This document shows positions 16,812 through 48,613 of a stretch of 64,000 nucleotides of DNA, piece by piece. Made by a program: the position numbers and the translations under genes. The stretch spans positions 124,001 to 188,000 of the forward strand of contig JAUQWM010000005.1 in the NCBI GenBank assembly GCA_030835125.1, in the 5' to 3' direction. The stretch's first letter is position 1. Each line of letters begins with the position of its first letter. The notes beneath the pieces are model-generated. The model saw only the letters and a program-made list of their open reading frames with translations, made no database searches and was not told the origin of the DNA. The DNA is from Gemmatimonadaceae bacterium. GTDB lineage: Bacteria; Gemmatimonadota; Gemmatimonadetes; Gemmatimonadales; Gemmatimonadaceae.

Positions 16812-17020
16812 GGGTCAGCCGGTCAGGGCCTCCCGCTGCTGGCGGTGAGTCTTCCCGGGCGACCGGCTGCATTCTGGGTGGGACCTGTCCGAAACGACGC
16901 GGAGGTCCTGGTGTGGTGGGGGAGGGGCGCTGAGACCAGGAACGGGCTATTCTGGACCGGTCCAGTCATTTCCCAGGTACCAGCCCAAGATCCGTTTGGC
17001 TTCCGGGACGGCATTTTCGC

Positions 17021-18151
17021 ATGTCCGCAAGAGTGCTTATCATTGGCTTAGCTTCAGCGACGGCTGTCGCCCAAGTGGGGTCGGCGCAGACGCCCATCCC
17101 AGAATGGCGATTGAGTGCGCAGCAGCTCGTCATAGACGGCACGATCTCGTCGCTGCACCGCGTACGCGGTGCTGCAATCCTCAGCGACGGCAAGATTGTC
17201 CTCGCCGACGCAGGCAACAATCGTCTGTTGCTCTACTCAGTCGATGGTGCCCAAATCCGAGTGTTGGGACGCGAAGGAACTGGGCCCGGGGACGTTCAGC
17301 TGATTTGGGACTTGGCGGTCCTCTCCGACACCATCCTCACTTACGACACGGGTCTTAGTCGCGTATCGCTCTGGACTCCCACAGACGGATTTGTGCGATC
17401 GACTTCGCTCGCGAGCATGCCCGGTCAGATGCTTGAACTCAGAGCCTTCGTTACTCCAAGTGAGTTCGTGGTAACCAGAAGAACTGCACGCGCTCAAACG
17501 AGCAAAGGTCTTTTCACTGATACGGTCTCTGTCCTGCGCTTCCATGCATCGCCTCAAGCGATATCTGAAATTGAGCGACGGGCGTGGGATCAGAGGTACT
17601 TCTACCCACAGGGAAACGGTGCAACCACGTACGTGACGCCGTTCCTTGGATCGGCGCATGTTGCGGTCGCGGGGCGTCATATCTTGACGGTGCCGCTGGC
17701 TGGAGCTGAGGTGGTGATCCGCGCGTTCGATGACGGAGACACCGCAGTGATCCAGCTTCCGGTAAGTCGGCGACCCTTCGACCGCACTCTGGTCAATGCG
17801 TACCGAGACTCTCTTCTTCGCCTGAGGCGTCAATCAACAGTGCCAATGCCAGGAGCTGAGCAACGTATTCACGATGTTTTCGGACCCGCTTTCCCGTTGC
17901 CGAGGCTCCGCCCCGTCATTGAGAACGCGAAAACAGTTGGCGCCGATGTGTGGCTCCGCACATTTGAGGGCACTGGCAGCGCAGTTGATTGGTACGTGAT
18001 CAATCCTTCAGCCAAGCGTCTGGTAGCCCGCCTTTCACTGCCAGCAAGTTGGCGTCTGCTTGGTGGAACAGGTGGCAAGGTCCTCATTCTGAAGCGCGAC
18101 GCAGATGGTGTGGAGTCAGTGTCTGTTCACGCAATTCTGAGAACGCCGTGA
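17021..18151 (+). CDS. Secreted six-bladed beta-propeller protein
   Basis: The protein has 376 residues. The signal peptide MSARVLIIGLASATAVAQVGSAQ is followed by NHL-like blades such as GAAILSDGKIVLADAGNNRLLLYSVDGAQIRVLGREGTGPGDVQ. This is the 6-bladed-propeller family that is expanded in this window (also 28597, 29772, 37943). Members are exported and of unknown ligand. Base composition looks lower in GC than that of the genes before it. An attC-like site starts 23 nt after its stop, so it may be an integron cassette. Confidence 0.75.
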   Translation: MSARVLIIGLASATAVAQVGSAQTPIPEWRLSAQQLVIDGTISSLHRVRGAAILSDGKIVLADAGNNRLLLYSVDGAQIRVLGREGTGPGDVQLIWDLAVLSDTILTYDTGLSRVSLWTPTDGFVRSTSLASMPGQMLELRAFVTPSEFVVTRRTARAQTSKGLFTDTVSVLRFHASPQAISEIERRAWDQRYFYPQGNGATTYVTPFLGSAHVAVAGRHILTVPLAGAEVVIRAFDDGDTAVIQLPVSRRPFDRTLVNAYRDSLLRLRRQSTVPMPGAEQRIHDVFGPAFPLPRLRPVIENAKTVGADVWLRTFEGTGSAVDWYVINPSAKRLVARLSLPASWRLLGGTGGKVLILKRDADGVESVSVHAILRTP

Positions 18152-18173
18152 CTGTGACAGCAACCGGCCGGAA

Positions 18174-18290
18174 GCCTAACGGGCGTTGCCGCAGACGGCG
18201 GAGCTATGTACGTGCGGAGGCGTTCGCTTGCGTTCACGTCCACCGCGCGGCTTTGTTGGATCCGTCGCAGCTGAACGCTATCCGTTAGGC
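18174..18290 (+). repeat. attC-like integron recombination site A
   Basis: This 117-bp element begins GCCTAAC (R''-like, 18174-18180) and ends GTTAGGC (R'-like, 18284-18290), which are exact reverse complements. Inner arms GCGTTG and GAACGC also pair. The layout matches integron attC sites (RYYYAAC ... GTTRRRY), and the element lies between two short genes. Copies of similar length and sequence occur at 27788, 28455 and 35972. Confidence 0.75.
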
Positions 18291-24755: not shown

Positions 24756-27443
24756 ATGACGGGTTACGTGCGTGCCGCACTCGCCCGCATCCGCGAACTG
24801 TTCCGCCGCCGCTCGCGCGTTGCCGCCGAGCGCGATGAGGAATTGCGCTTTCACGTGGAGATGGAGGCCGCGGAGAACGTCCGCCGCGGCATGAGCCCGG
24901 CCGATGCGCACCGCGCCGCCGTGCTCCGCTTCGGCGGCATGCAGCGCTTCCGTGAGGCCACGAACGACGCCCGCGGCGTCGTCGCGCTCGACAACCTCGC
25001 TCGCGACATACGGTTCGCCTTCCGCCGGCTGCACCGTGCCCCGGCGTTCGCCGCCGGAGTCATCACCACCATTGGCATTGGGATCGGAGCCGCGGTCGGC
25101 ATCGGCACCATCGTGTACGGCGTTCTCCTCCGCGACCTCCCGTACGACAGGCCCGACCAGCTCGTGCGCGTCGGCTTCGTCACGGAGGGAATCGGCGGGC
25201 CTGGCGACCTCCAGTCGCCGGCCACGTACTTCCACTTCGCGAAGAGCGCGCGCTCCTTCACGGAGCTGGGTGCATACTCGACCAGCGACGCGTTCGCCAT
25301 CACGGACGGCGACTCCCCCGAGCGGGTGACGGCCGCGCTGATGACGCCGAGCACGTTCACGCTGCTTGGCGCGCGCCCGCTGCTCGGCAAGCTGTTCCAG
25401 CCGGGCGATACGTCGTGGTACGGTGAGCGCCTCCTTCCGATTCTCATTTCCGAGAACCTCTGGCGCCGCCGCTATGGTGCGGATCCCGGCATCATCGGGC
25501 GTCGCATCGACATCGACCACGGGGAACGCGAGGTCGTCGGCGTGCTCCCCCGTTCCTTCCGCTTCCCGTCGCCGTCGATCGACATCTTCTATCCCGCGCC
25601 CGTACCGGTCAGACGCCCCGGCATCGCCCCGCGGTACCTCACGGTGATCGGCCGCCTGCGAGACGGCGTCAGTGCAACCGGTGCCGCAGCCGATCTGAAC
25701 GCGCTGATTCCGCGCCTCCCGGAACGGTTCCCGGCCATCACCGTCGAGATGCTGCGGGAGACCAACGCCCGCGCAACCGTCGAGTCGCTCCAGAGCGCCA
25801 CCGTGGCTCCGGTGCGCTCGCAACTCAGGCTGCTCGGTGTGCTCGTCGCCATCGTGCTGCTCATCGCGACGACCAACATCGTCAATCTCTTCCTGCTCCG
25901 GGCCGAGCGAGCCGGCCACGAGTTCGCCATTGCGCTCTCGCTTGGCGCCACCCGCGCGACGCTCGCGCAGCGCTTCATCGTGGAAGGGGTCATGCTCGGC
26001 CTGGCGTCGTGCGGCATTGCGCTTCCCGCGACGGCGCTGGCGCTGTCCACGAAGTTCGGCTTCACCGAAGGCGATATCCCGCGGCTGGGCGAGGTCTCGT
26101 TCGCATGGCCGACGGTCGCGCTCGTGCTGGCGAGCGCAACGGCCATCGGTGGCGCGGTCGGACTCATCGGGCTGGCGCGCACGGGGAAGGCGGGGACGTT
26201 CGACCGGCTTCGCGCGTCGCGCACCGCGTCGAGCCCTGCCTGGCGGCGCGTGCAAGGCGGACTCGTGGCCGCACAGGTGGCGTTCGCCCTCGTTCTGCTG
26301 GTCGCGGCGGGTCTGCTTGGCCGCAGCTTCTGGAACCTCCGGAACGCCGAGATCGGTTTCGATCCCGCGAACCGGATGATGGCCCAGGTGTCGCTCCCGT
26401 GGAGCGGCTACACGTCCTACGGAGCCGTCGCCGCATTCCACGCGAAGGTACTCGATCGGCTTGCCGCGCTGCCTGGCGTCACGTCCGTCGGCGCCGCATC
26501 GGAGCTTCCGCTGACCGGTCACGGCGCGCCGCTTCTCAGGGAAGTCCGGGCCGCCGTCGAGGGCGGACGGGAGGGCGTGACGGCGGCGAGCAATATGGCG
26601 ACCGAAGAGTATTTCCGTACGATGGGGATTCCGCTGCTCGCCGGGCGCACTTTCCGCGCCGGCGACCTGCGGGGCACGCCGGCGGTCGTCGTGAGCGAAC
26701 GCGTCGCGCGGCGCCTGTTCGGAACGGCGTCGGCTCTCGGCCGGCGCATCGTGCTGGATGCCGATGCGCCGGCGGCGTTCACGATCGTCGGGGTGGTCGG
26801 CGACGTGCAGTGGGCGCGCATCGAGGACGGCGACGTACCCATGGTGTACTTTCCGCTCCTGCGCGACGGCGACGGGATTCCGGCCGACAGCACGCCCGTC
26901 TATCGGCCGACGGATGCCCAGTACGTCGTCCAGGGAACCGAGCTGCCCACCGCCGCGACGATCCGGCGGGTCGTGACGGAGATCGACCAACGCGTGCCGG
27001 CGTCGAACATCCGCACGCTCGGCTTCGTCGTGGACACGGCGACGGCTCGCGTGCGGCTCACGATGCTGCTCATCGGGGTCGCGGGCGCCGCCGCGCTTCT
27101 CCTCGGAGTGATCGGCGTGTACACCGTGGTCGCCTACGCCGCGAACGGGCGCATGCGGGAGTTCGGCATCCGCCTCGCGCTCGGCGCCGCACCGGCGCGC
27201 GTGGGCGGCATGGTGCTCGTCGACGGCGCCAGGCTCGTCGCGATCGGCACGTTCGCCGGCCTCGCCGCAGCGCTCGGCGCCACGCAGTTCCTGCGCGCCC
27301 TGCTGTATGAGGTGGCACCCACCAGCCTCGCGGAGTTCGGGGCCGCGACGGCACTCCTGGTGGTGGTCACGCTCTGCGCCACGCTTCTACCCGCGCACCG
27401 TGCGGCGCGCACGCATCCCGCGGTGGTGCTCCGCGGCGAGTAG
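24756..27443 (+). CDS. ADOP-type ABC transporter permease (MacB/FtsX-like)
   Basis: The protein has 895 residues. The N-terminal charged region AAERDEELRFHVEMEAAENVRRGMSPADAHRAAVLRFGG is the hallmark of acidobacterial duplicated orphan permeases. It is followed by two MacB-like periplasmic domains and FtsX domains, with helices near 100-125, 370-395, 405-425, 455-475, 505-525 and three at the C-terminus (about 770-890). No ATPase gene is next to it, as is usual for ADOPs. Start ATG at 24756, four bases after PadR. A long antisense frame (24480-26990) is a GC shadow. Confidence 0.92.
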   Translation: MTGYVRAALARIRELFRRRSRVAAERDEELRFHVEMEAAENVRRGMSPADAHRAAVLRFGGMQRFREATNDARGVVALDNLARDIRFAFRRLHRAPAFAAGVITTIGIGIGAAVGIGTIVYGVLLRDLPYDRPDQLVRVGFVTEGIGGPGDLQSPATYFHFAKSARSFTELGAYSTSDAFAITDGDSPERVTAALMTPSTFTLLGARPLLGKLFQPGDTSWYGERLLPILISENLWRRRYGADPGIIGRRIDIDHGEREVVGVLPRSFRFPSPSIDIFYPAPVPVRRPGIAPRYLTVIGRLRDGVSATGAAADLNALIPRLPERFPAITVEMLRETNARATVESLQSATVAPVRSQLRLLGVLVAIVLLIATTNIVNLFLLRAERAGHEFAIALSLGATRATLAQRFIVEGVMLGLASCGIALPATALALSTKFGFTEGDIPRLGEVSFAWPTVALVLASATAIGGAVGLIGLARTGKAGTFDRLRASRTASSPAWRRVQGGLVAAQVAFALVLLVAAGLLGRSFWNLRNAEIGFDPANRMMAQVSLPWSGYTSYGAVAAFHAKVLDRLAALPGVTSVGAASELPLTGHGAPLLREVRAAVEGGREGVTAASNMATEEYFRTMGIPLLAGRTFRAGDLRGTPAVVVSERVARRLFGTASALGRRIVLDADAPAAFTIVGVVGDVQWARIEDGDVPMVYFPLLRDGDGIPADSTPVYRPTDAQYVVQGTELPTAATIRRVVTEIDQRVPASNIRTLGFVVDTATARVRLTMLLIGVAGAAALLLGVIGVYTVVAYAANGRMREFGIRLALGAAPARVGGMVLVDGARLVAIGTFAGLAAALGATQFLRALLYEVAPTSLAEFGAATALLVVVTLCATLLPAHRAARTHPAVVLRGE

Positions 27444-27787
27444 CCAGATCCGACAAGACTCCAGTTCTGCGACTTGGCCGCGCGCCCGCGGCTGCTCGTC
27501 CTCGCGGCGCACAACTGAACGGTTGTGACCACGTGCTTTCGGACTGTCGCATGAGCTTCCTTGGTGTTCATTGGCGGACGTCCCCTCCGGCAGGCAAGCA
27601 CCCCGACTCAGCGTGCGCAATGCGGCGTGGAACCGTCTCGTACCGTAGACGATCCAGCGCATTGACGTCATAAGGCGATTCTGCGATCGTGCGCTTCGGC
27701 TCCGCTGCCCGAGGCGGAGTCATATTGGTACACAAGAGGATGCGCTCCTCAGTTACTCCAGTCGCTCGACCACCTGACTCGCGCCGC
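27444..27787. other. Stretch without a supportable gene
   Basis: No protein-like frame of convincing quality. A minus-strand frame (27568-27801, 77 codons) has a TTG start and no known motif. The stretch runs into attC-like site B and may be the remains of a cassette. Confidence 0.35.
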
Positions 27788-27903
27788 GCCTGATAGGCCA
27801 AGGTGTGGATTGCCGCCGCGGCCAGCAGTCGTATCTTGGAGAACGTGTCGCCGTACGCGGCGGCTCTGTTTGATCGATCGTAGCTGGACGCTATCCGTCA
27901 GGA
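27788..27903 (+). repeat. attC-like integron recombination site B
   Basis: This 116-bp element starts GCCTGAT and ends GTCAGGA (27897-27903). The right half (GTAGCTGGACGCTATCCG) closely matches site A. The left box is nearly the complement of the right box. A gene starts 62 nt after it. Confidence 0.6.
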
Positions 27904-28454: not shown

Positions 28455-28570
28455 ACTTTACAGGCGTTACAGCAGGCGGCGGAGCCAGGGAGCGCGCCGA
28501 GGCACTGGCTTTGCTCGACACCGCGGCGCGATTGTATCTGGTCGCCGCAACTGAACGCTGTCCGTTACGC
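28455..28570 (+). repeat. attC-like integron recombination site C
   Basis: Element of about 116 bp, ending GTTACGC (28564-28570). The right end CAACTGAACGCTGTCC and the left CAGGCGGCGGAGC match site A. The left box is degenerate (ACTTTAC); an alternative left box CGCTGAC at 28436 overlaps the stop codon of the cupredoxin gene. The next gene begins 26 nt later. Confidence 0.6.
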
Positions 28571-33660: not shown

Positions 33661-33772
33661 CAACACACCGACCGCCCGCCATGCCCGTGACGACCGAGCA
33701 ACGCACCTGTGCCCGCATCGCCACGCTCGCGCGTAGCAGCCACTCACTCACTCACTCCTGTCGACTCCAACC

Positions 33773-35224
33773 ATGCCCCGCACCCATTTCCTCGTCGTTG
33801 CCCTGCTCCTGGCCGGCGTCTCGCGAGTTGCCGACGCACAGGCGGAGCAGTGCCGTGCGCGCGTCACTCCCATCACCCCGGCTGCGGCCCTGAGTGGCTC
33901 GGTGCAGGCGCTGGGACTCGCCGACGCCGAGGGGCGCATTCGCGTCGGCTCGGCATCCGACGTCACGTTCATGGACTACCAGTCGGACCGTCAGTATCCG
34001 CCGTACCTCTGGTCGGGATCTGAGGGCGTGACCGCCTTCGCCTGGCCTGCGGGCCTGACGCGCTTCGAGCGCTCAGGCGGCTTCGCCATCGTCACCGACT
34101 CGTTGCGGCACGCGGTCGTCTCGCCGAGAGGATCACAGGTCGTCCCGTCGCGCACGCCGAACCTGCTCGACGAGCGCGCGATCGATCCGTGGGCGGTGCT
34201 CGCCGATTGGCGTGGTGCATCCGGCGTGGCGACGGATGGTGAATGCCTCTACCGCGACTTCTGGCGCCTCGTGCTCTCCCGGCCGAGCGGTGCCTCGCGA
34301 GACCGGTTGTTCCTCGATGCCCGATCGCTCATGCCGGTGAAGCTCGAGCGGCGTGAGGCGCACCCGCTGTGGGGCGACGTGCGGGCGGAGTACATCTGGT
34401 CGATCTGGATGCCGGTAGCCGGCACGTCCGCGCTGGCGCCGCGATTCGCGTTCCGCATGGCCGACGGCGAGGTGCAGCATCAGCGGCAGGTGCCGCGATA
34501 TGCGTTTGCTCGACCGGACACGACGATCGACATGGGCATTCCCGCCTCTGCGGGACCGTTGATGCAGGCCACCCTCCCCGTCGAAACCGTGCGCGTGGCC
34601 GAGAACACCTTCCTTCTGCGCTCGCAGTCCTACACGAACGTCGTGACCCTGCAGGCCGACACGGTATGGATCCTGGACGCCCAGGTGGGGGAGGAGCGCG
34701 CACGACAGGATTCCGCCTGGGTGGGGCGCCTGTTCCCGGGCCGCCATCCGGTGGTCGTGGTCGTCACCGACCTGGCGCACCCGCACATCTCCGGCGTCCG
34801 GTTCTGGGTCGCGAGCGGCGCCACGGTGATCTCGCACGCGCTGTCGCGAGGATTCCTCGACCGCGTTGCGTCTCGTCGCTGGACGCTGGCGCCGGACAAG
34901 CTCGAGCTGACTCGGCGGGCGCGACTGCGATACGTCGGTGTGACAGACGGCGAGACGAGGGCCGGTGGCCGCGTCCAGTTGATACCGATCGGCGGTGTCG
35001 CGAGTGAGGGCGCGCTGATGGTGTACCTCCCCGGCCAGCGCTTCCTGTATGCGGGCGACTTCATCCAGCAAGGCTCGGCGTCGAGCTTCACCGTCGTCTA
35101 TGCCCGCGAGGTGCTCGCCGCGGTGCGACGCGCTGGCCTCACGCCAGCGTCGTTCGCGGCCATGCACGTCGCACTAACCGCCTGGAGCGACCTCGCCCGA
35201 TTCGGCGCCACGCCAACACCCTGA
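33773..35224 (+). CDS. Secreted metallo-beta-lactamase-fold-like protein
   Basis: The protein has 483 residues with a signal peptide to about ADAQA. The C-terminal 200 residues have the outline of an MBL fold: NTFLLRSQSYTNVVTLQADTVWILDAQVGEE, VVVVTDLAHPHISGVRFWVASGATVISHAL, RFLYAGDFI and AMHVALTAW. The usual HxHxDH motif has become DLAHPHISG, so metal binding may be altered. The N-terminal 270 residues match no family I know. A hydrolase function is inferred only weakly. Confidence 0.6.
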   Translation: MPRTHFLVVALLLAGVSRVADAQAEQCRARVTPITPAAALSGSVQALGLADAEGRIRVGSASDVTFMDYQSDRQYPPYLWSGSEGVTAFAWPAGLTRFERSGGFAIVTDSLRHAVVSPRGSQVVPSRTPNLLDERAIDPWAVLADWRGASGVATDGECLYRDFWRLVLSRPSGASRDRLFLDARSLMPVKLERREAHPLWGDVRAEYIWSIWMPVAGTSALAPRFAFRMADGEVQHQRQVPRYAFARPDTTIDMGIPASAGPLMQATLPVETVRVAENTFLLRSQSYTNVVTLQADTVWILDAQVGEERARQDSAWVGRLFPGRHPVVVVVTDLAHPHISGVRFWVASGATVISHALSRGFLDRVASRRWTLAPDKLELTRRARLRYVGVTDGETRAGGRVQLIPIGGVASEGALMVYLPGQRFLYAGDFIQQGSASSFTVVYAREVLAAVRRAGLTPASFAAMHVALTAWSDLARFGATPTP

Positions 35225-35412
35225 CGGTCTCGCCTTCACCGCCAAGTCGACATGATGCGCTACGTGCCCCTCGCAGCCGGGGGTCCTGCTGACGGCCCTG
35301 TTGTTCATGCTCGTCATCGGCTGGCGGGATGCCGGTGGCTCACGCCGCCACGCGCTCTTGTTGCGTCTGCCGCAGCTTGCCGCCATCCATCTGGTGCTGC
35401 GTCCGCGCGCAA

Positions 35413-35487
35413 GCTTGCAGGCGTTGCGCGAGCAGGCGTCGGTGTGCTCTGATTGATCGTCTGCAGTAGAACCGCTGTCTGTTACAT
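35413..35487 (+). repeat. Short attC-like site E
   Basis: Element of about 75 bp between the MBL-like gene and the DUF5990 gene, beginning near AGCTTGCAGGCGTTGCGCGA and ending CTGTCTGTTACAT (R'-like box 35481-35487). The right end (CTGCAGTAGAACCGCTGTC) resembles site A. The left box does not pair well, and the element is shorter than the others. Confidence 0.4.
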
Positions 35488-35977
35488 GGCCCGCATTCAA
35501 CCAATGCCTCTCTCTTCGAAGCGTGCATCGACCGCGGAAACTCTGGTGCCATTGCGAATTACGGTGGTCCGTCCGCTGCCGGGCGTCACGCTCAAGCTGC
35601 AGCGCGGGGCGAAAGACTGTGTACCTCCGTCGCTGCGCTCTCCAGACTCCGTGTCGTTCGATTTCGAACTCAGGCTCAAGGACGAGGGGGCCAGTGCGGG
35701 AGCGCTGCGTTGGCTCGGCGAGCATGCCCAGGGTTCCCCCGCCGATCGCTTCGTGTACGTGAACGTCGGGCGACGGGCCGGACAGACGGACACTGCGTGG
35801 GACCGGCGTGCGAAGGTCAAGCTGGCTGGCATCACCCGAGCGCAAGTGCGCGCGGTCCTCGGAGCGGTCGGGAGCCGTATCGAGGCCCGCTTTCAGGGGG
35901 CGGGGCGCGACGGGGGACCGAGCTGTGGAACGGTGCCGTTGCTCGCGGGCTGGGTCGTGATCCCGGCGGCCACCTGA
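35486..35977 (+). CDS. DUF5990 family protein
   Basis: The protein has 163 residues from the ATG at 35486; an ATG at 35504 is also possible. DUF5990 features: VPLRITVVRPLPGVTLKLQRG, FVYVNVGRRAGQTDTAWDRRAKVKLAGITRAQV and EARFQGAGRDGGPSCGTVPLLAGW. The family is soluble, widespread and of unknown function. The gene begins at the right edge of attC-like site E and its TGA lies in the left box of site F, so it has the structure of a complete gene cassette. Confidence 0.82.
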   Translation: MARIQPMPLSSKRASTAETLVPLRITVVRPLPGVTLKLQRGAKDCVPPSLRSPDSVSFDFELRLKDEGASAGALRWLGEHAQGSPADRFVYVNVGRRAGQTDTAWDRRAKVKLAGITRAQVRAVLGAVGSRIEARFQGAGRDGGPSCGTVPLLAGWVVIPAAT

Positions 35978-36088
35978 CAGGGGTTGGTCGCTGACGCCGG
36001 AGCTATGGTACGCGCCGGGGCACTCGCTTCGCTCGTGTCTACCGCGCGCAGTGCAGGTCCGTCGCAGTGAGAAACCTGTCCGTCAGGC
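35972..36088 (+). repeat. attC-like integron recombination site F
   Basis: This 117-bp element has the same length as site A. Left box ACCTGAC (35972-35978) contains the DUF5990 stop codon. Right box GTCAGGC (36082-36088) complements six of its seven bases, a paired change from the GCCTAAC/GTTAGGC of site A. The middle (GCCGGAGCTATG, ACCGCGCG, GTCCGTCGCAG) matches site A. Confidence 0.72.
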
Positions 36089-36147
36089 CGACGCAGCCAA
36101 CGTGCTGACCATTCCCGGGCGCTTGGGGCACTGGTCTCCTTCATCTC

Positions 36148-36819
36148 ATGGAGCAGCAAATGGCTGATCCTGTCACGCCGCTGTACTTCAGGCTCGTGAT
36201 CCGTCTCCTGCGCCCGTTTCCCGACTTCGACTTCGGCTTCATCAAACCGGTGCGCGCGCGTGCTGCCGCGCTCCTCGAGCTGACCGAGCGGGCGCGGGTC
36301 CTCGACGTTGGCTGCGGACCCGGGGGAAGTTTCCCGTTTCTGCGCGCCGCCGTCGGCGAAACCGGGGAGGTCGTCGGTGTGGAAATCAGTCCTGACGTCG
36401 CGGTGAATGCCAATCACCGCATCGCCCACCATGGCTGGCGCAATGTTCGCGTGCTCACGGCCCCCGCACAGACCGTCGCGCTCACGGGACTGTACGATGG
36501 GCTCCACATGTTTGGCGCGCCCGATGTGTATGCCGCGGAATCCGCACTCTCCAACCTGCTACCCCGTCTGCGCCCGGGCGCGCGCGTCGTCTTTTTCGGG
36601 GCGAAGACGTCGACACGCCCGCAAGGTTGGCTGCTCAACCCGCTGCTGCGGCGTCTGTTCCCGAAACTCACGTTCGAGTCGACACCGCTCCCAGACGCTG
36701 CTCCGTGGGCGGTTCTCGCGCCGAGGCTGGCTGCGTTCGAGGTCCGCGAATACTTCTTCGGTTGGATGTTTCTAGCGTGCGGAACGTACCCAGGTCCTGC
36801 GAGTGTTTCGGCGGCCTGA
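36148..36819 (+). CDS. SAM-dependent class I methyltransferase
   Basis: The protein has 223 residues. Motif I is RVLDVGCGPGGSFPFL, followed by VVGVEISPDV (motif II acidic residue), and NLLPRLRPGARVVFFGAKT near the substrate side. The start is ATG at 36148 or 36160. The substrate is unknown. The gene lies between two matching boxes: GTCAGGC at 36082 before it and GCCTGAC at 36814 containing its stop codon, exactly what an integrated cassette should show. Confidence 0.82.
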   Translation: MEQQMADPVTPLYFRLVIRLLRPFPDFDFGFIKPVRARAAALLELTERARVLDVGCGPGGSFPFLRAAVGETGEVVGVEISPDVAVNANHRIAHHGWRNVRVLTAPAQTVALTGLYDGLHMFGAPDVYAAESALSNLLPRLRPGARVVFFGAKTSTRPQGWLLNPLLRRLFPKLTFESTPLPDAAPWAVLAPRLAAFEVREYFFGWMFLACGTYPGPASVSAA

Positions 36820-37056
36820 CCGACGCTGCAGTTGTCGACGGAGCCGTAGTGCGCGCTCAGCATGACGGGAGCGCGAGCCTGGGGCTGTAGTAGGCCCCTC
36901 ACAGACTGCCTTGTCGCGCAGGGCCAACCGCGCGAAGTTTCTGTCATGGCACTGCTCGGCTGGGACGAGGTTCGCCGAAGGAATCGGCCGTAGTCTGCGG
37001 AAGCGGCTGCGCCGCTCCGGTCACCTTCGACTGCAGGTCAAACCTACCCGTTAGCT
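36814..37056 (+). repeat. Long attC-like region G
   Basis: It begins GCCTGAC (with the methyltransferase stop) and ends ACCCGTTAGCT (R'-like box 37050-37056). At 243 bp it is longer than ordinary attC sites, so it may hold inserted DNA. Its right box GTTAGCT is the exact complement of AGCTAAC at 37361, the end of the next gene. Confidence 0.45.
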
Positions 37057-37084
37057 GGCCAATCGAGGCTTCGAGCGTACGACC

Positions 37085-37366
37085 ATGGCATCCAAGTGGC
37101 TCACCACGTACGCGCGCCATCACCGGGCCATCGAGTGGTTGTTTCTGGCTGTGTTCCTGGCGCTGTTCGCGTATTGCGTGGCCGACTGGCGAGGGTGGCT
37201 TCCGTTCGAGCGCGGCTTCCAGCCCCTACGCATGGTGTTTCTGAGCGGAGCACTCCTCACGCAGGCGATCGCGACGCTCGTTCGGCCGCGCTCTGTGGGC
37301 TTATCTTATGCTCTGCTTGGCGTGTCAGTGCTGTTGCTCGCCAGAACGTTCTTCGTTGCCAGCTAA
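37085..37366 (+). CDS. Small three-helix membrane protein
   Basis: The protein has 93 residues with three hydrophobic segments (about 18-35, 48-64, 72-90): IEWLFLAVFLALFAYCVADW, RMVFLSGALLTQAIATLV, GLSYALLGVSVLLLARTFFV. No family is recognised. It starts 29 nt after the GTTAGCT box and its TAA stop lies in AGCTAAC, so it is a minimal cassette. Confidence 0.65.
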   Translation: MASKWLTTYARHHRAIEWLFLAVFLALFAYCVADWRGWLPFERGFQPLRMVFLSGALLTQAIATLVRPRSVGLSYALLGVSVLLLARTFFVAS

Positions 37367-37398
37367 CGGGCCTTGCCGCTGCAACCTATCCGCCGGGT
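37361..37398 (+). repeat. Shortened attC-like site H
   Basis: It starts AGCTAACGGGCCTTGCCGCT, much like the left end of site A, and ends near GCAACCTATCCGCCGGG, like its right end with a decayed box. The middle of the element is missing, which suggests an internal deletion. Confidence 0.4.
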
Positions 37399-37426
37399 GG
37401 TCCTACAAGTCGCGAGCATGGTCCAC

Positions 37427-37927
37427 ATGAAACGTGCACTAGTGAACGCCCTCGCCGTGGTCGGCGCCCTGACGCTGCTTGGTTCAGTCCTCGCGCAAAT
37501 CCCGGAATGGGCCTACGAAGGGGCGACAGGGATTGTCATGGGGCCCAACGATTCGCCCGCGGCCAAGGTTCCGGTCTTTCTGAACCGTGGCGATGGCATG
37601 ATTGAGCGATTCCTCACCGACTCCATTGGACGGTTCTCGCTTCCGATCGAATATGCAAACCTGGAGCGAGCGGTCTGGCTGATCTGCGTGCCCGGGGGCA
37701 TCCCCGCTGTGGGACATCGCGAGCGCGGCACCGTTGGCCCGGTGACGTACGGATACTCGACGCTCCCCCCTGGTTCACTGTGGCCAGCGCATGCATTCGG
37801 GTGGAATGGTCCCATTCCTAGGGGATGCGCCGCGGACTCGACGTACCGGTGGCGCTTTCCGCCCGAAGCAGGCAAGCCACCGCTCGCCGCGACGGCGATC
37901 GAGCCGGACTGGGACAGCTACCGGTAG
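37427..37927 (+). CDS. Secreted protein with carboxypeptidase-regulatory-like fold
   Basis: The protein has 166 residues from the ATG at 37427, just after site H. Signal peptide MKRALVNALAVVGALTLLGSVLAQ. The sequence ATGIVMGPNDSPAAKVPVFLNRGDGMIERFLTDSIGRFSLPIEYANLERAVWLICVPGG has the spacing of a single Ig-like regulatory domain. Two Cys in the mature part could pair. Its function is unknown. It is followed by a propeller gene 15 bases later, so they may be cotranscribed. Confidence 0.62.
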   Translation: MKRALVNALAVVGALTLLGSVLAQIPEWAYEGATGIVMGPNDSPAAKVPVFLNRGDGMIERFLTDSIGRFSLPIEYANLERAVWLICVPGGIPAVGHRERGTVGPVTYGYSTLPPGSLWPAHAFGWNGPIPRGCAADSTYRWRFPPEAGKPPLAATAIEPDWDSYR

Positions 37928-37942
37928 TGGTGACGGCCACCG

Positions 37943-39010
37943 ATGCGTTCTCGCGCGCTGATTCTCGCCTTCATGGTCAGTCAGTCGACGGCCTGGGCCC
38001 AGGCACCCCGGCAGCTTGCGCTCAAACCGCCAGAAGCACGGCTCCCGGAAGAGTTCACCAACCTGACGTCACTGCGTGAACTGTCGGATGGGCGTGTTCT
38101 CGTCACGGACCGAAAGGATGGCCGGCTGGCGATTGTCGACTTCAGGACTGGTGCCGTCAGGTCGCTGAGTCGCAAGGGAAGTGGACCTGGAGAGTTTCTC
38201 GACCTGGGACCCGTCATGACGCTCCCCGCGGATTCCAGCATCGTCGTCGACATCGGAAACACGCGATGGCTGATCCTGGTCGGGGATAGCGTTACGGCAA
38301 CAGTCCCGTCCGATCACCCCGCGATACGGGGCGTCACGCACTGGATTCCTTTCGGCGCCGATCGCTCGGGCAACCTGCTCTCGATCCGGTTCGGACCGGC
38401 GAGGACGGATTCCGTCGACCTGACACGCGTCGCCCGATCAACGGGCCGCGTCGCCGTCATCGGAGCGCTGCGGTACGGCGTGCCCACCCGGGGAATCAAC
38501 CGTCCGACCGCTGGCCCCGAAGGCGCAATGCGAGTGACGCGACCGCCGTTCAACATCCGCGAGGAGCAGCCGCTTCTGTTTGAAGACGGTTGGGTTGCCG
38601 TGGCTCGCTACGAGCCGTACCGCGTCGACTGGATGTCACCAACGGGTCAGATCCGGCGAGGGGCGCCGCTGCCTGGCCGGCCACTCCCGATGAGCGCCCG
38701 CGAACGTGACGCCTACATCGCCCGGCACCGTGGGTACGCGTCGGCTCGGGAGTGGCCAGTGCACGTGCCACCGTTCGACAAGTCCTTTCCGCTGCTCGCG
38801 TCCCCCGAGGGGTGGCTCGTCATCCCGCGCGTTGCATCGGCTGACTATCCGAACCCGCGTTATGATGTCGTCGATCGATCCGGTGCGCTCCGCGGCGAGC
38901 TCCGGTTGCCGGGTGGGGCTCGCCTGCTCGCCTTTGGTAAACAGAGTGCGTATGTGGTGATCACCGATAGCGATGGGATCGAACGACTGCAGCGACATCC
39001 CTGGCCGTAA
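37943..39010 (+). CDS. Secreted six-bladed beta-propeller protein
   Basis: The protein has 355 residues. Signal peptide ALILAFMVSQSTAWAQ. Blades include SLRELSDGRVLVTDRKDGRLAIVDFRTGAVRSLSRKGSGPGEFLDLGPVMTLPADSSIVVDIGN, with the GSGPGEF turn shared with the other propellers here, and the end PNPRYDVVDRSGALRGELRLPGGARLLAFG. It is the fourth member of this group in the window. The ligand is unknown. Confidence 0.78.
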   Translation: MRSRALILAFMVSQSTAWAQAPRQLALKPPEARLPEEFTNLTSLRELSDGRVLVTDRKDGRLAIVDFRTGAVRSLSRKGSGPGEFLDLGPVMTLPADSSIVVDIGNTRWLILVGDSVTATVPSDHPAIRGVTHWIPFGADRSGNLLSIRFGPARTDSVDLTRVARSTGRVAVIGALRYGVPTRGINRPTAGPEGAMRVTRPPFNIREEQPLLFEDGWVAVARYEPYRVDWMSPTGQIRRGAPLPGRPLPMSARERDAYIARHRGYASAREWPVHVPPFDKSFPLLASPEGWLVIPRVASADYPNPRYDVVDRSGALRGELRLPGGARLLAFGKQSAYVVITDSDGIERLQRHPWP

Positions 39011-39046
39011 AGTCATCTGACAAACACCCTGTCGAGGTCATCGTGT

Positions 39047-39559
39047 ATGCGTCGAACGCTCGTCTGTTCCATCGGCCTGGTCCTCAGTGCTCACGCCCTG
39101 CCGGCACAGACGCTCCCGCCCGACTCACTGTTCGACCGGCTCGTTGGCCGCTGGGTACTGCGCGGCACGATCGCGCGCCAGCAGACGACGCATGACGTGA
39201 CGTTCGAATGGATGCTCGGTCGCAGCTATGTCCAGATGCACGAGGTATCCCGCGAGCGGGCCCCGAATGGCTCGCCGGCCTATGAGGCAGTGGTGATCTT
39301 CGCGCGCGATCCACGGACGGGCGAGTATGCCTGCCTGTGGATGGACAACACCGGGGCCAATGCATTCGATCCCGCCGGGATCGGTCGTGGCAGTGTGGCC
39401 GGCGACTCGGTTCCGTTCCTCTTCCGCTACACTGCGACCACCGGCTTCCACACCACGTTCGTATACAGCCGTGCCGCAGACTCATGGCAATGGCACATGG
39501 ACAACGACAGCGCCGGCGTGCGACGGCCTTTCGCTCGCGTGACGCTGACCCGTCGCTAG
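39047..39559 (+). CDS. Secreted DUF1579-like or lipocalin-like protein
   Basis: The protein has 170 residues with signal peptide to LPAQT. The mature part starts DSLFDRLVGRWVLRGTIARQQTTHDVTFEWMLGRSYVQMHEVSRE and continues with alternating beta strands (YEAVVIFARDPRTGEYACLWMDNTG; FRYTATTGFHTTFVY). This is the pattern of DUF1579/THAP4-like ten-stranded barrels, which bind hydrophobic ligands. The assignment is by pattern only. Confidence 0.65.
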   Translation: MRRTLVCSIGLVLSAHALPAQTLPPDSLFDRLVGRWVLRGTIARQQTTHDVTFEWMLGRSYVQMHEVSRERAPNGSPAYEAVVIFARDPRTGEYACLWMDNTGANAFDPAGIGRGSVAGDSVPFLFRYTATTGFHTTFVYSRAADSWQWHMDNDSAGVRRPFARVTLTRR

Positions 39560-39601
39560 GCGGCTTGGGGGTCACGCCGAGAGCCCGCCCCTCGACCCGC
39601 T

Positions 39602-40276
39602 CTACTGCGGTCGGGCGTCGGAGCGCTGAACGAGTTCGGCCGGCGCCTGTTCGGTGAGCAGCTTCGTCACGAAGCGCTGGTTCTCGGAGATCCGCTCCAC
39701 CTCGAGCGCGATCGCGTCGACGGCGTCCTTGAGCTCGTGCGGATTCCCGGCGGGTCCGGCCGCGGCGATTTTGTGGTGCAGTCGAGCCGAGGCGCGATTC
39801 CACGCCCAGCGCCAGGCGAGCACGCCGAGCAGGACGAGCCCGACGCCACCGCCGACCATCATCCGCTGGTAGTCGACCCGCATCGCGTCCTGGGCCTGCG
39901 CAACGGTCTGGGCGATGAGTCCCTGGTTCAGGAGGCTGCTCGCGAGATCGGCGGGTGCGGCAGGGGCCGTCGCTTCCGCCGTGGTGACCCCGTTGGCGAG
40001 CGCCTTGGAGACGGCATCGTCGGCGGCGAGCTTCTCGCGCTCGATGCGCACCACGCGGTCGCCCAAGGACTTGATGCGACTGTCCAGCTCGGCGATCACG
40101 GTGGCCGGTGCCTGGTTCACGACCGCATTGTGGCGCTCGCCCATGAGGGAGTTGCGCTGATCGGAGAGCTGCTCGAGCTGTGAGCGGAGCTCTTCGCGCT
40201 GGAGCGACACTGCGCGCAGCTCGGCTTCGGTTCGGGGCACCGGGGGGGTGCCTGCGGTCGTTCCTTGAGGAGCCAT
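39602..40276 (-). CDS. Coiled-coil protein with one membrane helix
   Basis: The protein has 224 residues from the ATG at 40276. Residues 13-85 form a long heptad-type coiled coil (EAELRAVSLQREELRSQLEQLSDQRNSLMGERHNAVV ... IAELDSRIKSLGDRVVRIEREKLAAD). A hydrophobic helix follows (about 142-160, MMVGGGVGLVLLGVLAWRW), and a cytoplasmic helical tail. It is similar to small uncharacterised proteins of Gemmatimonadota. Its function is unknown. Confidence 0.7.
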   Translation of the reverse strand: MAPQGTTAGTPPVPRTEAELRAVSLQREELRSQLEQLSDQRNSLMGERHNAVVNQAPATVIAELDSRIKSLGDRVVRIEREKLAADDAVSKALANGVTTAEATAPAAPADLASSLLNQGLIAQTVAQAQDAMRVDYQRMMVGGGVGLVLLGVLAWRWAWNRASARLHHKIAAAGPAGNPHELKDAVDAIALEVERISENQRFVTKLLTEQAPAELVQRSDARPQ

Positions 40277-40493
40277 GCGATAACTACGACTCACCGCCGG
40301 CGAGGTGTCAAGAGCCGGCGGGCCGGGCCTCATCGGAGCAAACCACGACTGGTCCCACTTCCAATCGTGGCGACGGGGCGCGTTCTTGACCTGTCGATTG
40401 CGGGCGACCTGGCTCGACGCGCTCATGGGTGGCTACGACATCGCAGTCATGGCGCGGGCCCTCCAGCTGACCTCCTCCGGTCCACGGTGAACC

Positions 40494-40889
40494 ATGACTT
40501 CCATCATCCATTCGCAAATCACGGACATCCCGCACAGCGCGACGACGACAGGCTTCGACCTGCCGGGGTTTCGCATCGTCGAGTGCCTGGGTGTGGTGCG
40601 GGGCGTGGTCGTTCGGTCACGATCGGTGGTCGGCACGATCGGCGCCGGGCTGCAGACGCTGATCGGCGGGAATATCTCGCTCTTCACGGAGCTTGCGGAA
40701 CGAACCCGCCAACAGGCCTTCGATACGATGCTGCATCAGGCCGACCTGGCCGGCGCTGATGCCGTGATCGGCGTTCGCTACGACGCGAATGAGCTGATGA
40801 AAGGCGTGACCGAAGTACTCTGCTATGGGACGGCGGTGCGGGTGAAGCCGCTGGACGACGGTGCTGCGGGGGCTGATCCAGGTCGTTGA
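40494..40889 (+). CDS. YbjQ/DUF74 family protein
   Basis: The protein has 131 residues: FRIVECLGVVRGVVVRSRSVVGTIGAGLQTLIGGNISLFTELAERTRQQAFDTMLHQADLAGADAVIGVRYDANELMKGVTEVLCYGTAVRV. This is the pentameric YbjQ family, sometimes named heavy-metal-binding, of unknown function. Length and motifs are complete. The GGNISLFTEL and ADAVIGVRYD motifs are intact. Confidence 0.92.
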   Translation: MTSIIHSQITDIPHSATTTGFDLPGFRIVECLGVVRGVVVRSRSVVGTIGAGLQTLIGGNISLFTELAERTRQQAFDTMLHQADLAGADAVIGVRYDANELMKGVTEVLCYGTAVRVKPLDDGAAGADPGR

Positions 40890-40966
40890 GTCCTCACTCC
40901 AGCAACGTCACCGGAGTGTCATTGCCCGGGGACAGTGTTGGTAGCGCTGAGGCACCAGCCGTTCCC

Positions 40967-42343
40967 TCACCGCGCGACGGCTGGTGAGATGTTCTGGTTC
41001 AACCGGAAGAGGTTGGTCGGATCGTACGTCGCCTTGATCCTCGACAGGCGATCCCAGGTCGTGGCGGGATAGGCTGAGCGAATGCGTTCCGGGCCATCGT
41101 CGGTGAGGAAGCCCACGTACGCGCCGTCGTCACGCGGTTGCAGCGCGTGTGACAGCTCCTGCACCCAGGCGCGTCGCACCTCGCGCTCGGCGTCCCCCTG
41201 GTAGAACGCCGCCACATTCACCAGCATCGGCTTGGTTCGATGGGCGAACGCTGTCGCGTCGGCGGGCACGCGCGCCATCGCTCCACCGAGCGCCCGGAGC
41301 TGTGCCACGCGCATGGGGGCATCCCCCGTCGACAGATGTTCGTGGATCGTCCTCGCCGCCGGCAGGTCGATCCCGTTCACGAACATCGTTTTCGCGACCG
41401 CGGTCGGGCGATAGTTGGGGTCTTCGGGCGGATACATCGCCTTGTACGGACCCGGCTTGACCATGTCGGCAATGGGAGTCGCCAGTGCGCGGAACGGGGC
41501 CAGGGCGCGCGTCGCCGCTTCGTCATCGCCAGCGAAGGCGATGAAGGCGAGAATGACGAGACGGCCCTGAACGTCGGTGGGGATGAACGGTGCCGGCGGT
41601 GCGGGCATCACGTTGCCGATCGCCGACAGTTCCTCGGGTGCCGACAGCGACGCGGCGGCGAACCCGGCAATCGTCTCGGGCGTGGCGGGCAGGATCAGGA
41701 TGCCACCGGTGAAGTGCGGCAACGGGTGGAGACGGAACTGGAAGCGCGTCACGACGCCGAAGTTGCCGCCCCCGCCTCGAATCGCCCAGAAGAGGTCCGG
41801 CTCGTGCTGCGCGTCCACCCGCAGGATCCGTCCGTCCGCCGTCACCAGTTCGGCGGCCAGGACCGCGTCGATGGTCATGCCGAAGCGGCGAACGAGGAAC
41901 CCGATCCCGCCACCTAACGTGATGCCGCCGACACCGACCGAGCCGGCGTCGCCGAAGCCGATGACGAGGCCATGGTGCGACAGCGCCTCGGTGACCTGGA
42001 GGGCGGTCGCGCCGGTGTCGATCCACGCGGTGCGGGCGGCGATGTCCACCTCGATCTTCGACAGGTCACGCAGGTCGATCACGAGTCCGCCCTCGGTGGT
42101 GCTGTGGCCGGCCACGCTGTGCCCGCCGCTTCGCACCGCGAGCTCCAGGCCTTCCTTCCGCGCGATCGCTATCACGCGCCGGACATCGTCGGCAGTCGCG
42201 ACCCGCACGATGGCCGACGGATGCCGGTCGATGCCGCCATAGAAGACGGCGCGCGTCCTGTCGTAGGCGGGATCGCCGGGGGTGACGACCTGGCCGGCGA
42301 CCCCTGCCAGCGAGGTCAGCGAGGGGGGCAGGAATGTCGACAT
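40967..42343 (-). CDS. BBE-type FAD-linked oxidoreductase
   Basis: The protein has 458 residues. The FAD-binding half carries PSAIVRVATADDVRRVIAIARKEGLELAVRSGGHSVAGHSTTEGGLVIDL, with the His of SGGHS as probable covalent flavin site, and GVGGITLGGGIGFLVRRFGMTID, where the second Cys link of bicovalent enzymes is absent. The C-terminus YDPTNLFRLNQNISP is the berberine-bridge signature. It oxidises an alcohol or sugar-type substrate that cannot be named. The start is ATG at 42343; the longer open frame is not protein-like. Confidence 0.9.
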   Translation of the reverse strand: MSTFLPPSLTSLAGVAGQVVTPGDPAYDRTRAVFYGGIDRHPSAIVRVATADDVRRVIAIARKEGLELAVRSGGHSVAGHSTTEGGLVIDLRDLSKIEVDIAARTAWIDTGATALQVTEALSHHGLVIGFGDAGSVGVGGITLGGGIGFLVRRFGMTIDAVLAAELVTADGRILRVDAQHEPDLFWAIRGGGGNFGVVTRFQFRLHPLPHFTGGILILPATPETIAGFAAASLSAPEELSAIGNVMPAPPAPFIPTDVQGRLVILAFIAFAGDDEAATRALAPFRALATPIADMVKPGPYKAMYPPEDPNYRPTAVAKTMFVNGIDLPAARTIHEHLSTGDAPMRVAQLRALGGAMARVPADATAFAHRTKPMLVNVAAFYQGDAEREVRRAWVQELSHALQPRDDGAYVGFLTDDGPERIRSAYPATTWDRLSRIKATYDPTNLFRLNQNISPAVAR

Positions 42344-42669
42344 GAGGGATGTCCGGTGTGTGTTTGGGTTTCTAATACGTCGAACCGGGTCAGCGCAAAT
42401 CGACAGGCGTGATGAGTCGTGGATCCTGCCGGTCGGCGCCGGCACAACACCGAGGCGCCATGGTCCGGCTGGGCTCGTCGGGATCCTTGATCGGCTCCAT
42501 ACCAGCTCGCCGCGGGGAGCAGCGAGTTCACTTGAACGGAGGCCCCATGTCCTCGCGCGCCTCATGGTCGCGACCGCAGGCGCGTCGACATCAACGGCTG
42601 ACGATGCAGCAAGGGCTACCGGCGCAAGTGTATCGCGCCGGTGGCCGTCGAACGCACGAGACGTCGTGC
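42344..42669. other. Gene-free stretch between two minus-strand genes
   Basis: No coding frame that I trust. It should contain the promoter of the FAD oxidase and the end of the beta-helix transcript. A short hairpin (GGCGC ... GCGCC at about 42620) could act as terminator. Confidence 0.35.
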
Positions 42670-45540: not shown

Positions 45541-45584
45541 AACAGGTCGGGGTGTAAAGGTCAGACTAAACGGATACAGTCCAG

Positions 45585-45679
45585 CGGCGGTGCATCCGGT
45601 AACATCGGGCGGGGACACGAGCGCAGCGAGTGCCTTCTCGCGCATGGTTGATCTCCGCCAGCTGCAACCACTGTTAGGC
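45585..45679 (+). repeat. Possible attC-like site I
   Basis: It ends CAACCACTGTTAGGC with an exact GTTAGGC box (45673-45679). The inner CTCCGCCAGCTGCAACCAC resembles the right half of site A, and GAGCGCAGCGAGTGCC recalls the middle of site F. The left end is not clear. Confidence 0.35.
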
Positions 45680-46807: not shown

Positions 46808-48613
46808 ATGAAGAATCCACAACCAGATCCGGAGCCACCACCTCCGACGACGGCGTCGCCGCCGTCGGTTCCGGCGATCTACGAGCTCACGATTACTCGG
46901 TTCCGAGGGATCAGTGCGCTCACTTGGCAGCCGGCCAAGGGTGTCAACCTCGTTCTCGGTGGCGGCGACGTCGGCAAGAGCACAATCCTCGACGCGATTG
47001 GTCTGCTCCTCAGTCCAACCAACGCGGCGAACCTGTCGGACACGGACTACTACCTTCGTGACGTCGTCGCCGAGTTCGCGATCGAGGCAGTCGTGTCCTT
47101 GCCCTTGGCGGGCAAGGTCAATCAGCAGGTCAAGCCGTCGTGGCCATGGGTGTGGAACGGCAGCGCGGCCATCGTCCCCAGTATCGAAGGCGACGGACCA
47201 TCGACCTCAGAAGCCGTCTACCGCGTGCGCGTTCGCGGAACTGCCGACCTCGAACTCGCATTCGAAATCGTTCAGCCTGACGGCGCCGCGGATCACTTCT
47301 CCGTTGGCTTACGTCGATCCATCGGGCTCGTGCGACTTAGCGGCGATGATCGGAGTGACCGCGATCTTCGACTCGTGCAGGGCTCGGCCCTCGACCGTCT
47401 TCTGTCCGACAAGGCGCTCCGGTCTCGAATCGCGAGCGAGCTGGCGAAGACCGATGTCCACGAGCGGCTCGCGCCTGAGGCGAAGGCGGCCCTGGAGAAC
47501 CTGGACAAGACGTTCGCGAAACAGGGCTTGCCGAGTGGCCTAGATGTGTCGATCACTGGTGGACCCGGAGTATCTGTCGCGTCGTTGATCGGTCTACGCG
47601 CAACTAGGGCCGGTAAATACCTGCCCCTCGTAAGTTGGGGGGCTGGCACTCGCCGTCTCGCATCGCTGACGATCGCGGAGCAGAATCAAGGCGATCACCC
47701 CGTCATGCTTATCGATGAGATAGAGCGTGGCCTCGAACCCTACCGGCAACGGATGTTGCTCGCAAAGCTCCAGTCGGGAAGTTCGCAGGCATTCGTCACT
47801 ACGCACAGTCCGGCTGCCATCTCGGCCGCGTCCGAAGCGGCGCTCTGGTACGTTGACCACAACCAGAGGGTAGGACGACTTGCGGCTGCGAAGATCGCGA
47901 AGCACCGGTCGAAGGACCCGGACATGTTTCTCGCGCGTGTCGCGATTGTTTGTGAGGGCATCACGGAGGTGGGATTCGTGACGGCTCTACTCGAAGCGAC
48001 CCTCGGCTCGTCACTGCACCACCATGGCGTTCATGTCAGCGATGGCGGCGGAAACGACACGACGCTCGATCTCCTGGAGGCGTTGGCTGACGCGGGGATA
48101 CTCTTCGGGGGCTTTGCCGACGACGAGGGCAGGCATCCCGACCGGTGGCGGGCGGTGATGGCGGCGCACGGCGCGCTGCTCTTTCGGTGGGCCACCGGGT
48201 GCATCGAGGAGAACATTCTCCGTGCCGTCGGCGATGACCAACTGGAGGCCTTTCTGGTCGATCCCGATGGGGACGAGACGGGCACCCGGTTGCGGACCCT
48301 CGCTGATCGCATGAACATGGGCGACGAGAAGGGGTTTGCCGCCCTCCGTGACAGAGCAGGGGCTCGGTTTCGGGACTTTATCGTTGCTGCAGCAACCGGC
48401 GCGGTACCCGATGGAATAGAGGATCGCGATGCAAAGAAGACGCACAAGGCACACGCGCGCTGCTGGTTCAAGAACAACGAGGGCGGTCGCGAACTCGCGA
48501 GGAAGACGTTTCAGCTCGGGTGCTGGTCGGCGGTGAAGGGAGAGTTGCTTCCATTCTGCAACGCGGTACGAAGAGTTGTGGGGCTTGGCGATGTGCCGGA
48601 CGTGCAGCTGTGA
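46808..48613 (+). CDS. OLD-family ATPase with TOPRIM nuclease domain (GajA-like)
   Basis: The protein has 601 residues. The ABC-type ATPase half has Walker A GGGDVGKST (51-59), a signature-like SWGAGTRRLASL (277-287), Walker B PVMLIDEIERGLEP (298-311) and TTHSP. The TOPRIM half has VAIVCEGITEVGF with probable catalytic Glu383, and FADDEG (436-441). Such OLD nucleases cut DNA and are controlled by nucleotides. The gene overlaps a UvrD-like helicase gene by GTGA, the GajA-GajB layout of the Gabija anti-phage system. The Walker A sequence is unusual (GGGDVGKS instead of GxNxxGKS). The ATG at 46808 follows CCTAACGCA. Confidence 0.85.
   Translation: MKNPQPDPEPPPPTTASPPSVPAIYELTITRFRGISALTWQPAKGVNLVLGGGDVGKSTILDAIGLLLSPTNAANLSDTDYYLRDVVAEFAIEAVVSLPLAGKVNQQVKPSWPWVWNGSAAIVPSIEGDGPSTSEAVYRVRVRGTADLELAFEIVQPDGAADHFSVGLRRSIGLVRLSGDDRSDRDLRLVQGSALDRLLSDKALRSRIASELAKTDVHERLAPEAKAALENLDKTFAKQGLPSGLDVSITGGPGVSVASLIGLRATRAGKYLPLVSWGAGTRRLASLTIAEQNQGDHPVMLIDEIERGLEPYRQRMLLAKLQSGSSQAFVTTHSPAAISAASEAALWYVDHNQRVGRLAAAKIAKHRSKDPDMFLARVAIVCEGITEVGFVTALLEATLGSSLHHHGVHVSDGGGNDTTLDLLEALADAGILFGGFADDEGRHPDRWRAVMAAHGALLFRWATGCIEENILRAVGDDQLEAFLVDPDGDETGTRLRTLADRMNMGDEKGFAALRDRAGARFRDFIVAAATGAVPDGIEDRDAKKTHKAHARCWFKNNEGGRELARKTFQLGCWSAVKGELLPFCNAVRRVVGLGDVPDVQL

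Follow-up and report, generated by a model that had tools for sequence, protein, structure and literature searches.

A methyltransferase gene that is very probably an ageing integron cassette in a Gemmatimonadaceae genome

Introduction

Is a gene that lies between two short, exactly complementary boxes a cassette of an integron, a system with which bacteria collect genes, or could the boxes have arisen by chance? This question is raised by a gene on the forward strand (36148..36819) of the stretch of DNA that we analyzed, hereafter the window, which comprises 64,000 nucleotides of a Gemmatimonadaceae bacterium (C26:124001-188000 in a 4.48-Mb draft genome). A first-pass annotation had reported that GTCAGGC precedes this gene and that its perfect complement, GCCTGAC, contains the stop codon, and had argued that integration of a cassette predicts such a match while random repeats do not. 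Both observations are accurate: the boxes lie at 36082-36088 and 36814-36820, and the second includes the TGA (36817-36819) of the open reading frame (ORF) 36148-36819. In a passage of PMC8618304, Gemmatimonadota are named among the phyla that have integrons.

The argument depends on how the cassette would have been integrated. In the mechanism proposed here, it would have been captured in circular form, with the bottom strand of its attC folded. Judging from the boundaries, the integrase would have cut at the R' box and joined R' to an existing site; the 5' edge would thus carry part of the cassette's own R' box, and the 3' end the complementary R'' box. The rule to be tested is that, in an integrated cassette, the 5' edge pairs with the R'' box found at the 3' end of that cassette, and not with the R'' box that shares its attC.

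Results

Complementary boxes around the gene

The pairing is longer than the 7 nt originally noted, extending over 9 nt between GTCAGGCCG (36082-36090) and CGGCCTGAC (36812-36820). From the sequence and the box pairing, the 5' cassette edge would consist of the R' box GTCAGGC followed by CG, and the R'' box GCCTGAC, with its TGA stop, is preceded by two more matching bases. GTCAGGC occurs 33 times in the window, counting both strands, versus 14.3 expected. We scanned all 53 scored ORFs of the window for inverted matches of the stop region to the 100 nt upstream of the start. Inverted pairs of at least 7 nt were found for nine of these ORFs, and pairs of at least 9 nt for two, namely the methyltransferase gene and one non-cassette gene.

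Among 2756 mismatched gene pairs from the window, 12.7% have a pair of at least 7 nt and 0.76% a pair of at least 9 nt. Because 12.7% of mismatched pairs match as well, chance could account for the 7-mer pair by itself, and the assertion that random repeats do not produce such a match carries little weight at this length. The first-pass annotation had itself suggested looking for the same boxes around non-cassette genes, and this comparison leaves the 7-mer pair a weak argument, with 9-nt pairs being rarer. The assertion holds for the 9-nt pair at attC-defined positions: among R'' boxes other than its own, just 1 of 20 in the genome and 1 of 302 in relatives match the 5' edge at all nine positions. 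At positions that are fixed independently by attC homology, the 9-nt pair is beyond chance.

The non-cassette gene that also has a 9-nt inverted pair (24756-27443) appears by eye to be ABC-permease-like, and is a caution against relying on box matching alone.

The left attC site

The GTCAGGC box ends a 117-nt attC (35972..36088, forward strand; hereafter the left attC), in which R'' and L'' of an upstream cassette carrying a DUF5990 gene are joined to the R' box of the methyltransferase cassette (36082-36088). This assignment is based on covariance models, BLAST matches and a consensus hairpin. The site scores 77.3 bits with model R1, which was built from 15 attC sites, and 98.4 bits with R2, which was built from 7. 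Because the left attC was among the training sites of both models, it is the BLAST match that provides independent support. The site matches C63:5288-5417 at 77% over 130 bp (E = 7.9e-17), and further matches are to C26:69401-69478 (85%) and C63:1284-1402 (77%). The left attC also aligns with the attC family of the genome's own integron array.

A consensus fold of seven short-type sites, including the left attC, gives the attC hairpin, with R''/R' and L''/L' paired and with changes on both sides in 9 of 35 pairs. Single-sequence folds of the attC sites are no more stable than shuffled sequences (the left attC has a z-score of -0.12, which is not significant), and the case for a bottom-strand hairpin with paired R and L boxes therefore rests on the alignment consensus. 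Judged from these sequence comparisons, the box at 36082 is the R' box of a real attC from the genome's own integron family.

Complementarity of a cassette's own ends

In relatives, the own ends of 202 cassettes match on average at 6.46 of nine positions beyond the core, versus 4.13 +/- 0.08 when shuffled, and the highest mean among 2000 shuffles was 4.39. The corresponding value for boxes of the same integrated attC is 4.40, versus 4.05 shuffled. The relatives' sites leave out seven own-genome matches and one cut-off match from a list of 161, as well as the 39 weakest matches and one edge match from a list of 189.

For the genome itself, we used 24 unpicked cassettes, defined by consecutive R1 sites with gaps of 100-2400 bp. 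Their mean is 5.25 of nine, versus 4.37 +/- 0.22, with one of 5000 shuffles as high; it is lower than the mean of 21 hand-picked cassettes. The methyltransferase cassette scores eight of nine in this set, and its 5' edge agrees with its own R'' box at nine of nine positions when the core is included. The 202 cassettes of relatives and the 24 of this genome thus bear out the proposal that a cassette's own attC supplies its 5' edge. At another locus (L034 9394-9480), 11 of 12 positions of R'' GCGCTGGCTGAC agree with R' GTTAGCCAGCGC, which lies in the same attC, whereas the cassette's own 5' edge shows no such agreement.

The right-hand attC and the neighboring cassettes

The attC that should follow the methyltransferase gene (36814..37056, forward strand) is recognizable only at its two ends, an R''-L'' half at 36814-~36856 and an L'-R' half at ~37028-37056, with unrelated sequence between them. 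In short BLAST alignments (E = 0.04-0.27), these halves are 70-76% and 78-85% like attC ends, respectively. The covariance scores are weak (R1, 17 bits, E = 0.2; R2, 7.5 bits). We read this region, on its similarity to attC ends, as a disrupted and badly decayed site, whose disruption would have followed integration. The attC boundaries would place the methyltransferase cassette at 36083..37050 (forward strand), starting at the G^T point of the 5' edge and ending on the G in the GTT of the cassette that follows.

That next cassette (body at 37050..37367, forward strand, GTTAGCTGGC ... GCCAGCTAAC) has the canonical core, contains a 93-aa ORF (37085-37366), and its own ends match at eight of nine positions beyond the core. 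Its attC (37361..37397, forward strand) appears from BLAST to have lost the terminal structure, such that R''-L'' is fused to L'-R'; the sequence is 90-94% identical to both attC halves over 17-20 nt (E = 0.14-0.37).

Upstream, the DUF5990 cassette body (35481..35978, forward strand; Pfam DUF5990, 4.3e-28) runs from R' GTTACAT to R'' CACCTGAC. The ORF was called at 35453-35977, and by eye an in-cassette ATG is present at 35486 or 35504. An attC-like site (35365-35487, forward strand) with an R1 score of 21.8 bits precedes the cassette. Three positions distinguish the R'' box of this cassette from the cassette's own 5' edge, and at each of them R'' agrees with the methyltransferase R' box, which lies in the same hairpin (35971-36088). 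Templated correction of the former box by the latter is possible, and we do not claim it because, in relatives, boxes of the same attC match scarcely better than when shuffled. A segment of 67 bp at the start of the DUF5990 gene (35507-35573) is 91% identical to C16:153392-153458 on another contig of the genome.

The integron of the genome

An intact integron integrase is encoded in the same genome, near the end of contig C46 (TIGR02249, 388 bits versus a cut-off of 265). Contigs C46 and C63 overlap at their ends, and together they read integrase, attI, a first cassette (GTTATGCGGC...GCCGCATAAC) and then a cassette array (C63:1 to ~28,500). The attC sites of this array are ~116 nt long, with a CACTCGCTTCGCTCGTG hairpin, or ~131 nt long. 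In total, a covariance search of the genome gave 34 attC sites with E<=0.1. Stray sites that are distant from the integrase occur on contigs C59, C25 and C29, and at C26:69403.

In the window, a tblastn search with the integrase gave no match below E = 2, and we found no integrase-like ORF. The window contains attC sites on the forward strand at 27772..27903 (R' GTCAGGA; R1, 63 bits) and 28455..28570 (R' GTTACGC; R1, 71.3 bits), in addition to those at 35365 (weak) and 35972. A passage of PMC8618304 uses the term CALIN for a cluster of attC sites that lacks an integron integrase, and the several sites of the window fit this description. The present case differs in that an attI-like sequence lies 19 kb upstream, and in that the sites were called by covariance models, not by IntegronFinder.

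This attI-like sequence (16946..16996, forward strand), identified by BLAST-type identity, has no adjoining integrase. It is identical at 39 of 52 positions to the attI region beside the integrase (E = 0.013), and is followed by a cassette whose 5' edge is at 16994 and whose own ends match at eight of nine positions. The cassette has a 376-aa ORF and ends in a well-preserved attC, GCCTAAC...GTTAGGC (18174..18290, forward strand; R1, 108.7 bits, with the site in the training sets of R1 and R2). This arrangement (16946-18290) suggests the head of a second integron, translocated or left as a remnant. A further attC lies on the opposite strand (45564..45679; R2, 59.5 bits). Near it, the ORF at 46808-48613 has AAA_21 and OLD-like TOPRIM domains and possibly encodes an OLD-family nuclease.

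Among 99 genomes of the same bacterial family, 53 contain attC sites of this family and 56 contain integron integrases above the cut-off. Near-identical sites occur in tandem, 269 bp apart, at two loci (L117 8116-9017, in G081, and L143 17892-18524), and are likely duplicated mini-cassettes. At a separate locus (L008 4031-5190), coordinates indicate a shared order in six relatives.

The methyltransferase

The 223-aa product has matches to Pfam Methyltransf_25/31 and PCMT. Its AlphaFold2 model (mean pLDDT 77) resembles in Foldseek the class I SAM-dependent methyltransferases 3dh0 and 8ys9, the latter being a phosphatidylethanolamine N-methyltransferase. The domains and the predicted fold are thus shared with these enzymes, whereas identity to the structures listed, these two included, is only 13-22%. 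The model and the domain matches identify the product as a predicted class I SAM methyltransferase. Among the 25 NCBIfam families listed, the protein reached no cut-off. A later in-frame ATG at 36160 is preceded by GGAG, as seen by eye. A partial PADLOC match to mads_2 (positions 278-405 of 492) was read as the common SAM-binding domain and not as a defence system.

We found no ortholog in 30 relatives, of which 15 have weak matches of 28-40%. A search of genome contigs yielded 26 loci, four of them with 54-60% identity in the best segment. Homologs occur in records labelled Saprospiraceae (53%), Propionibacteriaceae (58%) and Chloracidobacterium (55%). No attC was seen by eye beside the four closest homologs in the stretches read. 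Viral contigs gave no match to the gene, and plasmids gave three weak archaeal matches. The first-pass annotation had proposed searching other arrays for this gene with these ends, and no such copy turned up in the 30 relatives, genome contigs, viral contigs or plasmids. The lack of an ortholog in the 30 relatives and the sporadic homologs of 53-58% in three other groups are consistent with horizontal arrival of the gene. When the DNA of 33700-42600 was compared to 40 relatives, the only match over the methyltransferase gene was one of 58 bp at 80% (G036). Because no match spanned the region, an empty site was not found in these 40 relatives.

The GTC/GAC core

The core triplets of the methyltransferase cassette are GTC (36082) and GAC (36818-36820), not GTT and AAC. 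Passages of earlier papers limit the conserved attC sequence to AAC and GTT (PMC2727003), call the GTT triplet absolutely conserved (PMC10609294), give the core triplet as GNT for IntI1 (PMC10127599) and give the R' consensus as GTTRRRY (PMC3053210). Among the papers listed by a non-exhaustive literature search, none was on GTC cores.

GTC is the commonest non-GTT core in this genome, present in the R' boxes of 9 of 37 listed sites, versus 3 of 302 in relatives (Fisher 1.5e-7, a comparison that is confounded, since the genome's own sites include much weaker and older ones). The list of 37 leaves out overlapping or opposite-strand duplicates and the weakest matches. In the C63 array, the sites closest to attI are GTT. 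Among the distal R' boxes of this array, 7 of 11 have a changed third core base (C in 6), versus 3 of 22 for the first two bases taken together (p = 0.006). GTC in R' and GAC in R'' pile up in distal and orphan sites (L034 5412-18813; 27903 and 36088 in the window). A change from TAAC to TGAC in an R'' box preserves the stop codon, as TAA becomes TGA.

Discussion

We conclude that the methyltransferase gene is very probably an integron cassette in an old, scattered, CALIN-like region of a genome whose intact integron lies elsewhere. The left box is the R' of an own-family attC, and the own-end rule holds. The reading is strong because the evidence for it is independent, comprising an intact integrase, a cassette array, and a left attC in the array's family. 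The claim that the gene is an integrated cassette is therefore supported. Several points count against it: the right attC is barely recognizable, the core is GTC/GAC, no attC was seen by eye at the four closest homologs in the stretches read, both covariance models were trained on sets that included the left attC, and its single-sequence fold does not stand out from shuffles.

The gene might instead be an ordinary chromosomal gene with a fortuitous inverted pair of 7-9 nt, in which case the left attC would belong only to the DUF5990 cassette. The weak right attC, the 9-nt pair at a non-cassette gene and the rates of such pairs in mismatched genes are what this explanation would lead one to expect. 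It would leave to coincidence that the left box coincides exactly with the R' position of an attC, that the sequence after the right box resembles R''-L'' starts, that the next cassette starts 230 nt later with canonical, matched ends, and that nine of nine matches are so rare among unrelated R'' boxes. We consider it very improbable. It is scarcely credible that the boxes are terminal inverted repeats of a small transposon or MITE. Inverted boxes do occur on both sides of one gene, but they are just 9 nt long, their flanks are attC family sequence, and own-end pairing obeys the integron rule over hundreds of cassettes.

A different question is how the unusual core arose within a cassette. The cassette could have been captured with its GTC/GAC core by an integrase that accepts GTC. 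The agreement of its own ends at nine of nine positions, core included, fits this idea, as do the frequency of GTC in the genome and the concentration of changes on the third base of distal sites. A relative (G015; locus L126) also has a GTC/GAC cassette with well-matched ends between GTT/AAC neighbors (edge at ~14410, R'' at ~14850), ~21 kb from that genome's integrase (C2:197401-198363). However, GTC sites are mostly distal or orphan, where other core changes are also found, and are rare in relatives. Moreover, among the 24 cassettes of this genome, GTC edges are not linked to GAC own boxes (4 of 8 versus 7 of 16, no more than expected), and in the passages cited above the triplet is conserved or, for IntI1, GNT. 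We therefore regard a working GTC core as unlikely, and doubt that the methyltransferase and G015 cassettes reflect an integron lineage in which both were captured and integrated through a second GTC/GAC core. Ageing with a preferred T-to-C change is the best and simplest account: after integration, the core would have shifted from GTT/AAC to GTC/GAC, with the boxes still pairing and the gene still ending in a stop codon (TAA to TGA).

The methyltransferase cassette is thus genuine but ageing, ordinary in kind and well supported. It shares with cassettes of sedentary chromosomal integrons its single gene, a genome-wide attC hairpin family, own-end complementarity, an R'' box that includes the stop codon and an integrase in the same genome. 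It differs in its GTC/GAC core, its degenerate right attC and its lack of attachment to the integrase. Given its worn sites and unusual core, the cassette has probably lost its mobility.

As a methyltransferase cassette, the gene is ordinary; the wider result is that the pattern seen in the first-pass annotation has been turned into a tested rule. The locus also raises the question of whether sites with a GTC/GAC core still work or are worn relics. If GTC/GAC did serve as a second core, the supposedly invariant third T of the crossover triplet would be dispensable for this integrase. Even where an array is worn, the boundaries of its cassettes are marked by the complementarity of their own ends, which can delimit cassettes that attC finders lose.
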